A program made the translations under genes and the position numbers. DNA of 64,000 bases from Acidobacteriota bacterium (lineage in GTDB: Bacteria; Acidobacteriota; Polarisedimenticolia; J045). The DNA is taken from NCBI GenBank assembly GCA_030949985.1, contig JAUZRX010000021.1:62001-126000 (forward strand), read 5' to 3'. Below the pieces are notes generated by a model that saw only the letters and a list, made by a program, of their open reading frames with translations, was not told where the DNA came from and searched no databases. Shown piece by piece: positions 6,078 through 59,679 of the stretch (positions are counted from its first letter, which is position 1; every line of letters starts with the position of its first letter).

Positions 6078-8177
6078 ATGGAAGCCCAACAGGACAAGAG
6101 CAGCGTACTGCCAGAGAACGCCTTTCGTGAACTCAAGCCGGGCGAGGTCTACCAACCGATTGTACCCGCCGACATCTCGACGCCCGAAGTCACGCTGCGC
6201 TCGGTGCTGCTCGGCCTGGGTGCGGTGGTGCTCTTCACCTTCGCCGCGGCCTACATCGGGCTGAAGACGGGCAACGTGATCGAAACGTCGATTCCCATCG
6301 CGATCCTCGCGGTGGCCATCGGCAACACCCTGATGCGCATGATGACCGACCGGCGCAACACCCTGCTCGAAAACGTCATCATCCAGTCCCTGGGGCAGGC
6401 TTCGGGAGTGGTCGTCGCCGGGGCTATCTTCACCATCCCCGCCCTCTACATCAATCAGCTCAACCCGAACTTCCTGCAGATCTTCCTGTCCTGCCTGCTC
6501 GGCGGCTTCCTCGGCGTGGTGCTGCTGATCCCCCTCCGGCGTTACTTCTGTGTCGAACTCCACGGCCAACTCCCCTTCCCCGAGGCCACCGCCATCGTCA
6601 ACGTCCTGGCCACCGGAGAAAAGGCGAAGGGATCGGCGGGCATCGTCCTCGGCCTGGCCTTCAGCCTGGGCTTCGTCTACGACCTTTTCGTGGAGTTCGT
6701 GCATCTCTGGAACGGCCACCTCAGCTCGCAGCACCTCTTCGGCCGCTTCGGCAGGGCCTTGGCGGAAAAGCGCTTCGAGCTGCGGCTCAACGCCACGGCG
6801 GTGTACTTCGGCCTGGGCTACATCATCGGTCCGCGCTACGCCGGCATCATCGCCGCCGGGTCGGTACTGTCCTACCTGGTGTTCGTACCGATGATCTTCT
6901 ACGTCGGATCCGGCATGCAGCTCCCGGTGGCTCCGGAAACCAGTCGCCTGATCGCAGAAATGAATGCGGCAGACATCTGGGGCACTTACGCCCGCCCGGT
7001 GGGCATCGGCTGCATCGCCATCGCGGGGCTGATCGGCATCATCAAGATGGGCAAGATCATCCTCTCCTCGTTGACGCTGGCCTTCAAAGGCCTGGTGGGC
7101 AGCCACCCGATCGACGCGGCGCTGCGAACCGACCGGGACATCTCCCCCAAAAACACCTTTCTGATCCAGGTCGGTGCCGCCGTCGGCATGCTGTTGCTGT
7201 TCTGGTGGGTCAGCGGCTCGATCAAGTACGCCCTGATCGGCACGCTGATCACCTTTGTCCTGGCCTTTCTCTTCACCCCCGTCGCCGCCCGTGCGATCGC
7301 TATCGTGGGCGTCAACCCGGTGTCGGGCATGACCCTGATCACCCTGATCATCGCCTGCCTGGCCCTGGTGGCCGCGGGCCTCGGCGGAGACGCCCTGGGA
7401 CAGACCATCGCCCTGATCATCGGTTGCGCGGTGTGCACGGCCCTGTCCACATCCGGAGCCTTCGTCTCCGACCTGAAGATCGGCTTCTGGACCGGCGCCA
7501 GCCCTTTTCAACAGCAGCGCTGGAAGTACCTGGGTATCGTGGTCGCCTCGCTCTGCGTAGGAGCGATCATCTGGGTGATGAATGACGCCTACGGTTTCCT
7601 TGTCGAGGAGGGCGGGCGCATGGTGCCCAATCCCGACATGCCGGCTCCCCAGGGCAACCTGATGGCCGCCATCGTCTCGGGCGTGATGGGTGGCAAGGAG
7701 CAGCCCCTGCTGCTCTACGCCCTGGGCGGCGTGATGGCGGTGCTGCTGGAAATGGCCTCGGTGCCGGCCCTGGCCTTCGGACTGGGCATGTACCTGCCCA
7801 TCGAAATCAACATGGCCGTCTTCGCCGGTGCCGGCGTGGGAGCGATCATCTCCAACTCCGGAGGCAGCGAAAAGGTGCGCAAGGCCCGGGCCAAACAGGG
7901 CACGCTGATCGCTTCGGGCGTGATGGCGGGAGCGGCCATCGTCGGCACCGTGGGCGCATTCGGCAAGCTTCCCGTTCTGGGCCAGCCGATCAACCTCATC
8001 GACCTCGAGCACCTGGCCGAGGCCGGGCAGTGGACAGGCATGCTGGCCTACTTGGAGGGTTTCTGGGGCCAGGCGGTCAGCGTGCTCTTCTTCCTGATCC
8101 TCTCCTGGCTGTGCTATCGCCTGGCGGCCAAGGGTGCCGCCTGGCAGATGGCCGAGGATGCCGAGGACGGATCCTGA
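6078..8177 (+). CDS. OPT family oligopeptide transporter
   Basis: Inner-membrane transporter of 699 residues with more than a dozen hydrophobic segments and OPT-family landmarks, including the early YIGLKTGNVIETSIPIA stretch and LPFPEATAIVNVL. OPT members are proton-coupled carriers of small peptides or, in the YSL branch, metal chelates. A TTG at 6018 in the same frame would overlap the previous stop, but the ATG at 6078 is preferred because it follows a purine-rich GGGAGAGACAG leader. It lies directly behind the M29 aminopeptidase, which favours peptide uptake as the role. Confidence 0.92.
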   Translation: MEAQQDKSSVLPENAFRELKPGEVYQPIVPADISTPEVTLRSVLLGLGAVVLFTFAAAYIGLKTGNVIETSIPIAILAVAIGNTLMRMMTDRRNTLLENVIIQSLGQASGVVVAGAIFTIPALYINQLNPNFLQIFLSCLLGGFLGVVLLIPLRRYFCVELHGQLPFPEATAIVNVLATGEKAKGSAGIVLGLAFSLGFVYDLFVEFVHLWNGHLSSQHLFGRFGRALAEKRFELRLNATAVYFGLGYIIGPRYAGIIAAGSVLSYLVFVPMIFYVGSGMQLPVAPETSRLIAEMNAADIWGTYARPVGIGCIAIAGLIGIIKMGKIILSSLTLAFKGLVGSHPIDAALRTDRDISPKNTFLIQVGAAVGMLLLFWWVSGSIKYALIGTLITFVLAFLFTPVAARAIAIVGVNPVSGMTLITLIIACLALVAAGLGGDALGQTIALIIGCAVCTALSTSGAFVSDLKIGFWTGASPFQQQRWKYLGIVVASLCVGAIIWVMNDAYGFLVEEGGRMVPNPDMPAPQGNLMAAIVSGVMGGKEQPLLLYALGGVMAVLLEMASVPALAFGLGMYLPIEINMAVFAGAGVGAIISNSGGSEKVRKARAKQGTLIASGVMAGAAIVGTVGAFGKLPVLGQPINLIDLEHLAEAGQWTGMLAYLEGFWGQAVSVLFFLILSWLCYRLAAKGAAWQMAEDAEDGS

Positions 8178-45264: not shown

Positions 45265-45909
45265 TCAGCCCCTGCCGTCCGGGTCCGACAGGCCAAGGCC
45301 GGCGACCAGGTCTTCGGCCGTGGTCGTAAGCGTGACGGGAAGAGACAGGACCCGTACCCCGCGCCGCCGGTACCATTGCACCAGGGGCCGCGTCTCGGCT
45401 TCGTAGAGGCGCAGCTTCTCCCGAACATCTTCCGGAGCGTCATCGTCACGCCCGGCATGGTCCTCGCTCGATCCCCGACGACGGCGGGCCACACGGCCTG
45501 CGGCGACTTCTGCCGGGCAATGGAGCACGATCACGCGACTGATTTCCAGCAGGCCGCCGATCCTCCGGGCCTGGGCCACGTGTCGCGGTATGCCATTGAG
45601 AATCACCTTTCGATCCCCGGCCCGCCGCGCGAGGATCCCCTCGACGATGCGCGCAGCGAGGGGGAAATCCGCGTCGGGAAACAGGGACCTGGCGGCCAAC
45701 AGCCGCCGAACGAAAGCCTCTTCCTCGGGGCTGAGGTCCACGACCCGGCGACCGGCGGCGATCTCCCGCAGGTGATGGCCGAAGTCCAAGTGGAAGCGCC
45801 CAGTCCTCCGGGCCAGCAGCTCTCCAGTCGGCGACTTGCCCGAACCTGTGGGCCCCACAAGCAACCAGGCGTCGCTGAGCGGCCCGGCGCGTGCGCCTCG
45901 ACTCCACAT
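45265..45909 (-). CDS. Nucleoside monophosphate kinase (adenylate kinase-like)
   Basis: P-loop kinase of 214 residues, with Walker A GPTGSGKS, an NMP-binding helix region (ILNGIPRHVAQARRI, in place of the usual GFPR) and a short-lid signature with GRDDDAPEDVREKL. This is the adenylate kinase architecture, but the usual GDLLR motif reads FHLDFGHHLRE and the GFPRT motif is altered, so it may use another nucleotide or be a divergent paralogue. The ATG at 45909 is preferred over 45933 because GGAGG lies 7 bases before it. It lies downstream of the degenerate integrase. Confidence 0.75.
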   Translation of the reverse strand: MWSRGARAGPLSDAWLLVGPTGSGKSPTGELLARRTGRFHLDFGHHLREIAAGRRVVDLSPEEEAFVRRLLAARSLFPDADFPLAARIVEGILARRAGDRKVILNGIPRHVAQARRIGGLLEISRVIVLHCPAEVAAGRVARRRRGSSEDHAGRDDDAPEDVREKLRLYEAETRPLVQWYRRRGVRVLSLPVTLTTTAEDLVAGLGLSDPDGRG

Positions 45910-46060
45910 CCCTGCGCCTCCACGGGACGGCATGGACGGTGTCCGCGGAAACGCGGACGACCCGGCCCGGCCGGGATCCTATCACTCACCGGGGCGGCGG
46001 TCGTTCCACGCTGCACGAGCCACCCGTTCCCTGGCCGCGGCAGACGGGCTGCGGGCGCCG

Positions 46061-47065
46061 TCACAGGGCGTCGAGGGGCGAGCGGATGCGGGCCAGGACT
46101 TTTTCGGGCAGGCGGAGCCTTCCCAGCCCGAGCAACGCCCGCAGGTGCTCCGGCTCCACGCCGTCTTCCAACAGGTGCGCGCTGAAGGCGTGGCGCAGAC
46201 TGGGCGCTCCCACCGCGCCCCCCAGGCCGGCCCGCCGGGCCCCCTCCCGCAACCGGGCTTCCACCCGCCCTCGATGGCCGGGCAAGCCACGTCGACAATC
46301 GACCACACCAGCAGGCAATGGGGGGGACTCGGCGGGAAAGAGGAACTGCCACTCCAACCGCCGGGTCTTGCGCGGCCTCGCGTCGCCCGGGTCGGCAACC
46401 AGCACCCAGCCGCCTCCACGGCGGCGCTCTTCCAGGTGACGGCGTCGCACCCGTGCGATCTGTCGCCCGAGCGGCCGCCCGGCGCGGAAGGCGATCCAGG
46501 TGACACGCTGCCGTCGTCGACCGTCGGCGATGCGGAGCCGGGCGGACGCTGGGTCCAGGTCGCGCAGGCGCAGGGTCAGGCATTCCCCCAGGGTCAGCCC
46601 CGAGCCGTAGATCAGCAGAGCGACCAGTTGCAGACGGTCGTCGAGGCGGGCCAACCAGTGCCGCACCTCGGCCCGGGAGAGCGAACGGGGCCAGCGAAGA
46701 GACGGGTGCGCCTCGAGCAGGGCGTCGAGCCAGGGCCCGCGGCAGGCGAGCACGTGGCGGCAGAAAAAGACCAACGCCCAGGCCGCCGCGGCCGCGGCAT
46801 CCGGCCCCTCCCGCCGGGCGACTCCTTCCACGAAGAGCTGCACCGCCGCCTGTTCCACCCGCCGGCGCGGGCGGATGGCTCCAGTACGGATGAAGCGACG
46901 CGCCCAATCCAGCACCTCCCGCCGCACCCACAGACCGTAGTGCCGGGTGGCAAGCTCCTCCCCCAGGCGCGCCAGCGCTCCTGCAGGAGGACGGGTCGTG
47001 TCGGGCGGATCTCTGGCTGGCACCACAGTGAAGCGACTCCCGGGCTCCGGGCCCACACCGGTCAT
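46061..47065 (-). CDS. Degenerate integron-type tyrosine recombinase (IntI-like)
   Basis: A 334-residue uninterrupted frame of integron integrase type. The N-domain has RHYGLWVRREVLDWARRFI, like the IntI core-binding start. LIYGSGLTLGECLTLRLRDLD is box I, the IntI-specific insertion is present (LEWQFLFPA, about 225-236), and the end RSPLDAL matches the usual IntI C-terminus. The catalytic set is broken: box I Arg is Thr158, the box II His is Pro288 (Arg291-His292 remain), the following His/Trp is Leu314, and the nucleophilic Tyr is gone with about seven residues around it. It is likely inactive in recombination, yet still open. No attI or attC was seen by eye. The ATG at 47065 lacks a strong ribosome binding site. 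Confidence 0.8.
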   Translation of the reverse strand: MTGVGPEPGSRFTVVPARDPPDTTRPPAGALARLGEELATRHYGLWVRREVLDWARRFIRTGAIRPRRRVEQAAVQLFVEGVARREGPDAAAAAAWALVFFCRHVLACRGPWLDALLEAHPSLRWPRSLSRAEVRHWLARLDDRLQLVALLIYGSGLTLGECLTLRLRDLDPASARLRIADGRRRQRVTWIAFRAGRPLGRQIARVRRRHLEERRRGGGWVLVADPGDARPRKTRRLEWQFLFPAESPPLPAGVVDCRRGLPGHRGRVEARLREGARRAGLGGAVGAPSLRHAFSAHLLEDGVEPEHLRALLGLGRLRLPEKVLARIRSPLDAL

Positions 47066-47229: not shown

Positions 47230-47991
47230 TCAGACGGGGGAACCGATCTCGATGAAACGCTGCTCGAGGCCGAAGCGACGGGCGAGATGCTCGCCGAGAG
47301 CCTGGACGCCGAAACGCTCGGTGGCGTGATGCCCCGCCGCGACGAAGTGCAGGCCTTCTTCCCGGGCGAGATGCACCATCGCCTCGCTGCTCTCGCCGGT
47401 CAGGAAGAGGTCGAGACCCATCCGCGCGGCGGTTTCCGCCGAGCGGGGATCGGCCCCGGTGACCACGCCGAAGCTCCGCAGCCGCGCCGGGCCGCCGTCG
47501 ACCACCAGGGGATCACGTCCCGTGGCCCGGGCAATACGGCCGAAGAACTCCGCGGCGTCCACGTTCTGCGCCAGCCGGCAGGCCAGACCGACGGGAACGC
47601 CCCCCGAGGGGAACGCCGGCTCCACGTCGACGGCGCCCAGGCGGCGGGCCAGAACCGCGTTGTTACCCACCTCCGGATGCCGGTCGAGGGGCAAGTGGTA
47701 GGCCAGCAGGTTGATCTCGGCCCGTAACAGCCCCTCCAGGCGGCGGCGCAGAGAGCGCTCGACACGCACACCCCGGGCGGAGTTCCAGAAAATGCCGTGG
47801 TGGACCAGCAAAGCGTCGGCCCGCCACGCCGCCGCTGCTTCGATCAGGGCCTGGCAGGCCGTGACACCCACCGCCAGGCGTTGGATCGACTCGCGTCCCT
47901 CCACCTGCAGGCCGTTGGGGCAGTAGTCCTGCACAGCGCCCGGTTCGAGATAGGTCTCGAGGTAGTCGACGACCTCGTTGCGCGCGGCCAC
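47230..47991 (-). CDS. Nif3-like dinuclear metal centre protein
   Basis: A 253-residue member of the Nif3/YbgI family, which forms toroidal hexamers with a dimetal site. The metal-binding motifs are visible: NGLQVEG near residue 27, LLVHHGIFW near 62, AYHLPLDRH near 97 and AAGHHATERFG near 220. The family is sometimes labelled GTP cyclohydrolase 1 type 2, but the reaction is not settled. It lies 164 bases upstream of the integrase gene on the same strand and diverges from ornithine aminotransferase. Confidence 0.93.
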   Translation of the reverse strand: MAARNEVVDYLETYLEPGAVQDYCPNGLQVEGRESIQRLAVGVTACQALIEAAAAWRADALLVHHGIFWNSARGVRVERSLRRRLEGLLRAEINLLAYHLPLDRHPEVGNNAVLARRLGAVDVEPAFPSGGVPVGLACRLAQNVDAAEFFGRIARATGRDPLVVDGGPARLRSFGVVTGADPRSAETAARMGLDLFLTGESSEAMVHLAREEGLHFVAAGHHATERFGVQALGEHLARRFGLEQRFIEIGSPV

Positions 47992-59602: not shown

Positions 59603-59679
59603 TGGTGGGCCCACCAGGGCTCGAACCTGGGACCAGCTGATTATGAGTCAGCCGCTCTAACCATCTGAGCTATGGACCC
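59603..59679 (-). tRNA. tRNA with CAT anticodon (Met or lysidine-type Ile)
   Basis: A complete 77-base cloverleaf with encoded CCA. The acceptor arms GGGTCCA/TGGGCCC pair (one T-G). D arm GCTC...GAGC, anticodon stem GCTGA/TCAGC around loop CTCATAA, and T arm CCAGG-TTCGAGC-CCTGG are all visible. Anticodon CAT can read AUG (elongator Met) or, after lysidine modification, AUA (Ile); sequence alone does not settle it. It is not an initiator type, because the first pair G1-C72 is intact. Confidence 0.95.

Follow-up and report, generated by a model that had tools for sequence, protein, structure and literature searches.

The gene described here encodes a descendant of the integron integrases (IntI) in which five of the six catalytic residues are gone, and the protein is under purifying selection after catalysis was lost. 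With fair confidence, the gene is read as an exapted intI, kept by selection, whose product would most likely act as a non-catalytic DNA-binding regulator with a target other than attC or attI. Exaptation fits the data because catalysis and the DNA motif of the core-binding domain have been lost, the fold, charge and C-terminal tail have been kept, selection is evident and no integron lies nearby. The gene is located within the window, the whole 64 kb stretch of DNA that was analysed (64 000 nt), and is flanked on the same strand by a Nif3/DUF34 family gene and an adenylate-kinase-like gene. The only tRNA gene within the window is a tRNA-Met (CAT) at 59603–59679 on the minus strand. Coordinates are collected in the table below.

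Table. Features of the dead intI locus, in window positions
Feature	Position	Strand	Basis or remark
Catalytically dead IntI descendant, probable real CDS	46061–47026	-	321 aa from GTG 47026
ORF taken from the first ATG, as in the sequence-only reading	46061–47065	-	334 codons
Probable Shine–Dalgarno sequence GGGAG	47037–47041	-	Position matched in the ortholog (L032 8283–8287)
Codon 158 (Thr), place of catalytic Arg I	46592–46594	-	Alignment
Codon 183 (Arg), place of catalytic Lys	46517–46519	-	Alignment
Codon 288 (Pro), place of catalytic His II	46202–46204	-	Alignment; Ala in the ortholog
Codon 291 (Arg), catalytic Arg II	46193–46195	-	Alignment; sole catalytic residue retained
LEWQFLFPA, IntI-specific insertion, residues 237–245	46331–46357	-	Present in both dead copies
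RSPLDAL C-terminal tail, residues 328–334	46064–46084	-	Identical in both dead copies
Nif3/DUF34 family gene, upstream neighbour	47230–47991	-	PF01784, E=6e-58; same order in G001
Adenylate-kinase-like gene, downstream neighbour	45265–45933	-	PF00406, E=8e-13

By profile comparison the protein is a descendant of an integron integrase. The IntI model TIGR02249 matches it at E=2.4e-35 (122 bits, short of the curated cut-off of 265), compared with 41 bits for XerD and 36 bits for XerC, scores that rule out XerC/D as the closest relatives; the general family Phage_integrase (PF00589) matches at 7e-9, and the nearest solved structure by sequence is Vibrio cholerae IntI4 (2a3v, E 5e-21). The insertion and tail that had been singled out as IntI landmarks from the sequence alone hold up as such. 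Retained motifs comprise the fold core, YGxGLxxxECxxLRxxD, WQxxFP, RHxFxxHLLxxG and the RSPLDAL tail, and the IntI-specific additional region of the C-terminal domain is present, with W239, F243, P244 and R259 conserved in both dead copies. The net charges of the two copies are +27 and +19, compared with a median of +19 for 73 active-type IntIs. An AlphaFold2 model built from an alignment of 75 sequences gives a confident predicted IntI fold (mean pLDDT 85.6) with both domains present and an ordered C-terminal tail (pLDDT about 93–96). Its top structural match is IntI 2a3v, with Z 20.6 over 276 residues, although the archaeal Xer 4a8e ties with it (Z 20.2); the large rmsd relative to 2a3v probably reflects a differing inter-domain angle in the model.

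The catalytic centre was examined by aligning the protein with about 128 distinct IntIs from its phylum, the Acidobacteria. Across the six catalytic columns the dead IntI reads T-R-P-R-gap-P, whereas nearly all others read R-K-H-R-H-Y. Arg I, Lys and His II are replaced, and the third His and the Tyr nucleophile are absent. The replacements reported from the sequence alone (Thr158 at Arg I, Pro288 at His II, and Leu314, which adjoins the place of the missing third His) are thus confirmed, as is the general claim that the centre has been lost; to that list are added the loss of the beta-hairpin Lys (Arg183) and the retention of Arg II (Arg291). The lack of a Tyr near the end was likewise correctly noted. 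The only two tyrosines in the protein are Tyr43 and Tyr153; neither lies in the C-terminal nucleophile-bearing segment, which rules out a displaced nucleophile, and the Tyr-bearing segment that precedes the RSPLDAL tail is shortened and not alignable in the dead copies. Arg I is missing in just 3 of the approximately 128 IntIs, namely the two orthologs and one truncated homolog, all with Thr in its place (L002 and L029 besides the present copy). The replacements extend to the core-binding domain, where neither dead copy retains the motifs S-x-R-T-E-x-x-Y and VSASTQNQA. With conserved positions defined as at least 90 % identical across the 73 active-type IntIs, 107 positions qualify, of which 41 are retained in both copies, 53 are lost in both and 13 are lost in one. 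Given a catalytic set other than R-K-H-R-H-Y and a score below the TIGR02249 cut-off, the dead copy is, as judged from its sequence, not a member of the functional IntIs, though it is descended from IntI.

An ortholog (L002/L032) with 61 % identity is found in G001, the only other species of the genus among the genomes compared (the family sample comprises 12 genomes). It is located in synteny, between Nif3 and the same adenylate-kinase-like gene, and all three genes are on one strand in both species. In G001 the kinase gene is set apart from the dead intI by a 2.6 kb insert (L032:4671–7306, G001:C687). On the same strand as intI, this insert carries a gene with a Fic domain, a fragment resembling Fic and an ORF of 113 aa; a relaxed attC rule finds no site in it. 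The catalytic columns of the ortholog read T-R-A-R-absent-absent: it too has Thr at Arg I and Arg at Lys, and it lacks His II, the third His and the Tyr. At 28 of the 53 jointly lost positions the change is identical (a shared replacement at 23 of them, a shared deletion at 5), and these counts suggest that the losses were mostly inherited from the common ancestor of the two species. The proposal that the loss was recent is therefore refuted, as the losses are common to the second species and were followed by purifying selection in both.

No ortholog beyond the genus was found in 396 genomes of the phylum. A search of the genome contig collection returned no ortholog beyond G001 and one spirochaete match at 30 %; viral contigs returned no ortholog, and plasmid matches are ordinary IntIs at about 29–31 %. 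A third IntI-like ORF (L029, L188:98–900, G008:C149, minus strand) has Thr at Arg I and Glu at His II, is truncated so that it ends before the Tyr segment, and adjoins flagellar genes. A tree pairs this homolog with the long branch of the two species, and trees rebuilt without either leave both unplaced; the homolog is perhaps an independent loss of catalysis.

The 334-codon frame is stop-free on the minus strand, as originally described. An open frame by itself is weak evidence of coding here, because the DNA is GC-rich and long ORFs (497 aa and 534 aa) overlap the dead intI in other frames; the evidence for a real protein is the codon test rather than the open frame. Between the two dead copies, codon positions 1, 2 and 3 differ by 86, 79 and 155 substitutions (chi-square p 6.6e-8). 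In a pairwise codon model omega is 0.084, and omega=1 is rejected with 2dlnL 130.8, a comparison with the ortholog that the sequence-only reading had recommended; dS is saturated (3.6), so that the value of omega is rough, but the rejection of 1 is strong. Each third of the gene separately shows a low omega and rejects omega=1. In the five remaining frames omega is 1 or higher; the exception is the reverse frame that shares its third position with this one, and it contains 4 stops. The values for the neighbouring adenylate-kinase-like gene and for the aminotransferase are 0.123 and 0.032. The test rests on two species, both represented by metagenome-assembled genomes, and neither dead copy contains a frameshift or stop. 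The excess of third-position substitutions and an omega of about 0.08 show that purifying selection continued to act on the protein once catalysis had been lost.

The start of the gene is probably downstream of the first ATG. In both orthologs GGGAG is followed after 10 nt by a start codon, GTG 47026 here and ATG at L032 8272 there, and counted from these starts both proteins are 321 aa long. GTG 47026 is thus the probable true start, and the 13 residues that precede it in the longer frame are probably untranslated.

No cassettes had been seen beside the gene, and several attC scans agree. Under a strict rule no attC-like sites occur in the 64 kb window or in the G001 contig; under a relaxed rule there are none around the dead intI, and the candidates that do appear are weakly paired (16–22 pairs, compared with 26–40 in true attC sites) and no closer than 8 kb. 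The same detector recovers arrays in the relatives G016, G018, G029, G329, G321, G395, G065 and G224. A covariance model built from attC sites of relatives detects 33 sites in G016 and another 11 in G329, yields nothing better than E 0.9 for either the window or the G001 contig, and finds no attC in the G001 genome. In the genome that carries the window, the whole-genome scan that had been proposed yields one weak, lone attC-like site (C70:7593–7655, L217:1501–1563, minus strand, E 0.089), and an array in this genome was accordingly rejected. By eye, the site adjoins ORF fragments resembling an IS66-type element.

A second IntI is encoded in the same genome (G000:C6:124701–125636, L031 about 6690–7655, plus strand) and has all six catalytic residues. 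It is located at the end of contig C6, and close to its N-terminus a TAG in frame stands at the position of the Tyr that relatives have in RLRHYSRRTE; thus, in this assembly, the uninterrupted intI is the dead copy. No second IntI was found in G001. Where attC arrays were found in this class, and likewise in G329, they follow intI on its 3′ side and share its strand (L193, L195, L197, L202), a layout that is reversed by comparison with classical integrons. Contigs also tend to end just 3′ of intI (G000, G002, G004, G010, G019, G024, G025, G027, G030, G033), which suggests unassembled arrays there. In L195, L193 and L202 the attC hairpins have an unpaired G on the 5′ arm of the intI-sense strand; the unpaired G of class 1 attC sites is placed differently, and integrons with the L195, L193 and L202 sites may differ in strand polarity.

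In the proposed scenario, the catalytic residues and the core-binding-domain DNA motif of a chromosomal intI would both have been lost in a common ancestor of the two known species of the genus. Selection would then have maintained the protein, with its tyrosine-recombinase fold but without cutting activity. The most likely role would be that of a site-specific, oligomeric DNA-binding protein, i.e. a transcriptional regulator or silencer, with a DNA target that would no longer be attC or attI. DNA binding, regulation and target are what we infer for the protein, and a DNA-binding regulator is taken as most likely on the precedents of MrpR and TnsF. MrpR, a protein of the tyrosine-recombinase fold that has lost its recombinase function, represses SPbeta by binding a repeated element (PMC10516654), and TnsF of Tn6022 is an inactivated tyrosine recombinase that serves as a target selector (PMC10293859). 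The suggestion made from the sequence alone, a retained DNA-binding role, pointed in the right direction; binding at a former attI is the part that finds no support, as the core-binding motifs are replaced and no attC is present there. Unchanged attI binding is unlikely because the core-binding-domain DNA motif of active IntIs has been lost, and since this motif is conserved in active IntIs, DNA binding itself might be lost. A conserved operator was not apparent, as the inverted repeats of the two upstream regions do not correspond; the 9-mer GTCTTGGAT is common to both regions, which may be a chance match. The more specific idea that the protein is a chromosomal regulator made from IntI, acting on host genes independently of integrons and forming the founding case of a domesticated integrase, is put forward tentatively, at somewhat less than even confidence.

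Other explanations can be set against this one. The dead protein could instead silence integrons, either by occupying attI/attC or by mixing with an active IntI, and so block cassette recombination as a dominant negative. Both copies keep the LEWQFLFPA insertion and the RSPLDAL tail, which could hold protomers together, and the second IntI with its full catalytic set would be a candidate partner. However, that partner is interrupted by TAG in a genome with a single weak attC-like site, G001 has the dead copy yet neither a second IntI nor an attC match was found there, and the DNA-contact motifs STQNQA and S-RTE--Y are lost; this silencing role is judged unlikely. A structural or protein–protein role that does without DNA binding, for example as a partner of the Nif3 or adenylate-kinase-like protein with which it may be co-transcribed, would agree with the shared strand of the three genes in both species, with the lost core-binding motif and with TnsF, whose remnant catalytic domain has been proposed to contact TniQ (PMC10293859). 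Such a role is quite improbable in view of the insert between dead intI and kinase gene in G001, the separate contigs on which Nif3 and the kinase gene lie in other family members having both, and the strongly positive charge that persists.

Decay has a certain appeal, since the stem branch is very long (5.07 changes per site) and about a third of intI genes were pseudogenes in a 2008 survey (PMC2426708). A pseudogene left open by chance in GC-rich DNA is nonetheless very improbable: none of its marks (a stop, a frameshift or omega near 1) is seen in either species, the codon model points to constraint between the species after the shared loss, the start and ribosome site are conserved, and the surveyed intI pseudogenes were not generally conserved between species (PMC2426708). 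Activity with a displaced nucleophile could appeal to the retained Arg II and fold, but it has almost no chance of being correct when Tyr43 and Tyr153 are the only tyrosines, both outside the nucleophile-bearing segment, and Arg I, Lys, His II and the third His are gone from both copies. The preferred reading remains the exapted, non-catalytic regulator.

Compared with functional IntI (TIGR02249, 2a3v), the dead copy shares the two-domain fold, the WQxxFP insertion, the LRHxFxxHLL motif and the C-terminal SPLD tail, but lacks five of the six catalytic residues, the core-binding motif and adjacent attC sites, and has a shortened Tyr segment. The AlphaFold2 model also matches MrpR (YopR) of SPbeta (8bpz, Z 10.8; 8a0a, Z 10.3) and SroF of phi3T (9rgl, Z 13.3), although likeness of fold at Z 10–13 shows no function. 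The combination that marks MrpR-like repressors, a kept fold with lost catalysis, is found in the predicted model; unlike the dead IntI, however, MrpR keeps Lys and Tyr and has a known DNA target (PMC10516654), and MrpR and SroF are phage repressors without IntI features. TnsF is likewise a co-opted tyrosine recombinase with a lost catalytic centre, but it is transposon-borne and has zinc fingers and a second core-binding domain, whereas the dead IntI is a single chromosomal gene with neither. In intI pseudogenes, i.e. the inactive intI genes of the survey (PMC2426708), and in inactivated intI1, which has been read as an escape from cost (PMC3510236), recombination is no longer possible either; those genes are broken by stops or frameshifts, whereas the dead copy has an intact frame, occurs in both species and is held under purifying selection. 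Crypton-derived DUF3504 domains of animals (PMC3212892) are also domesticated tyrosine recombinases without most of the R-H-R-Y tetrad, but are eukaryotic and originate in Crypton transposons.

A conserved, open, selection-kept but catalytically dead IntI was not found described in the open-access papers searched, which does not prove that no description exists. The reuse of a dead tyrosine recombinase is a known kind of event; a version that starts from an integron integrase seems to be new. If annotated only by family name, the gene would be labelled as either an active integrase or a pseudogene, wrongly in both cases, and it provides a cloneable protein for asking what a non-cutting IntI does. 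Inactivated integrases are normally taken as decay. In this case catalysis appears to have been lost before the two species diverged, and the protein has been maintained ever since. This pattern suggests that domestication, already known for tyrosine recombinases of phages and transposons, can also happen to an integron integrase.
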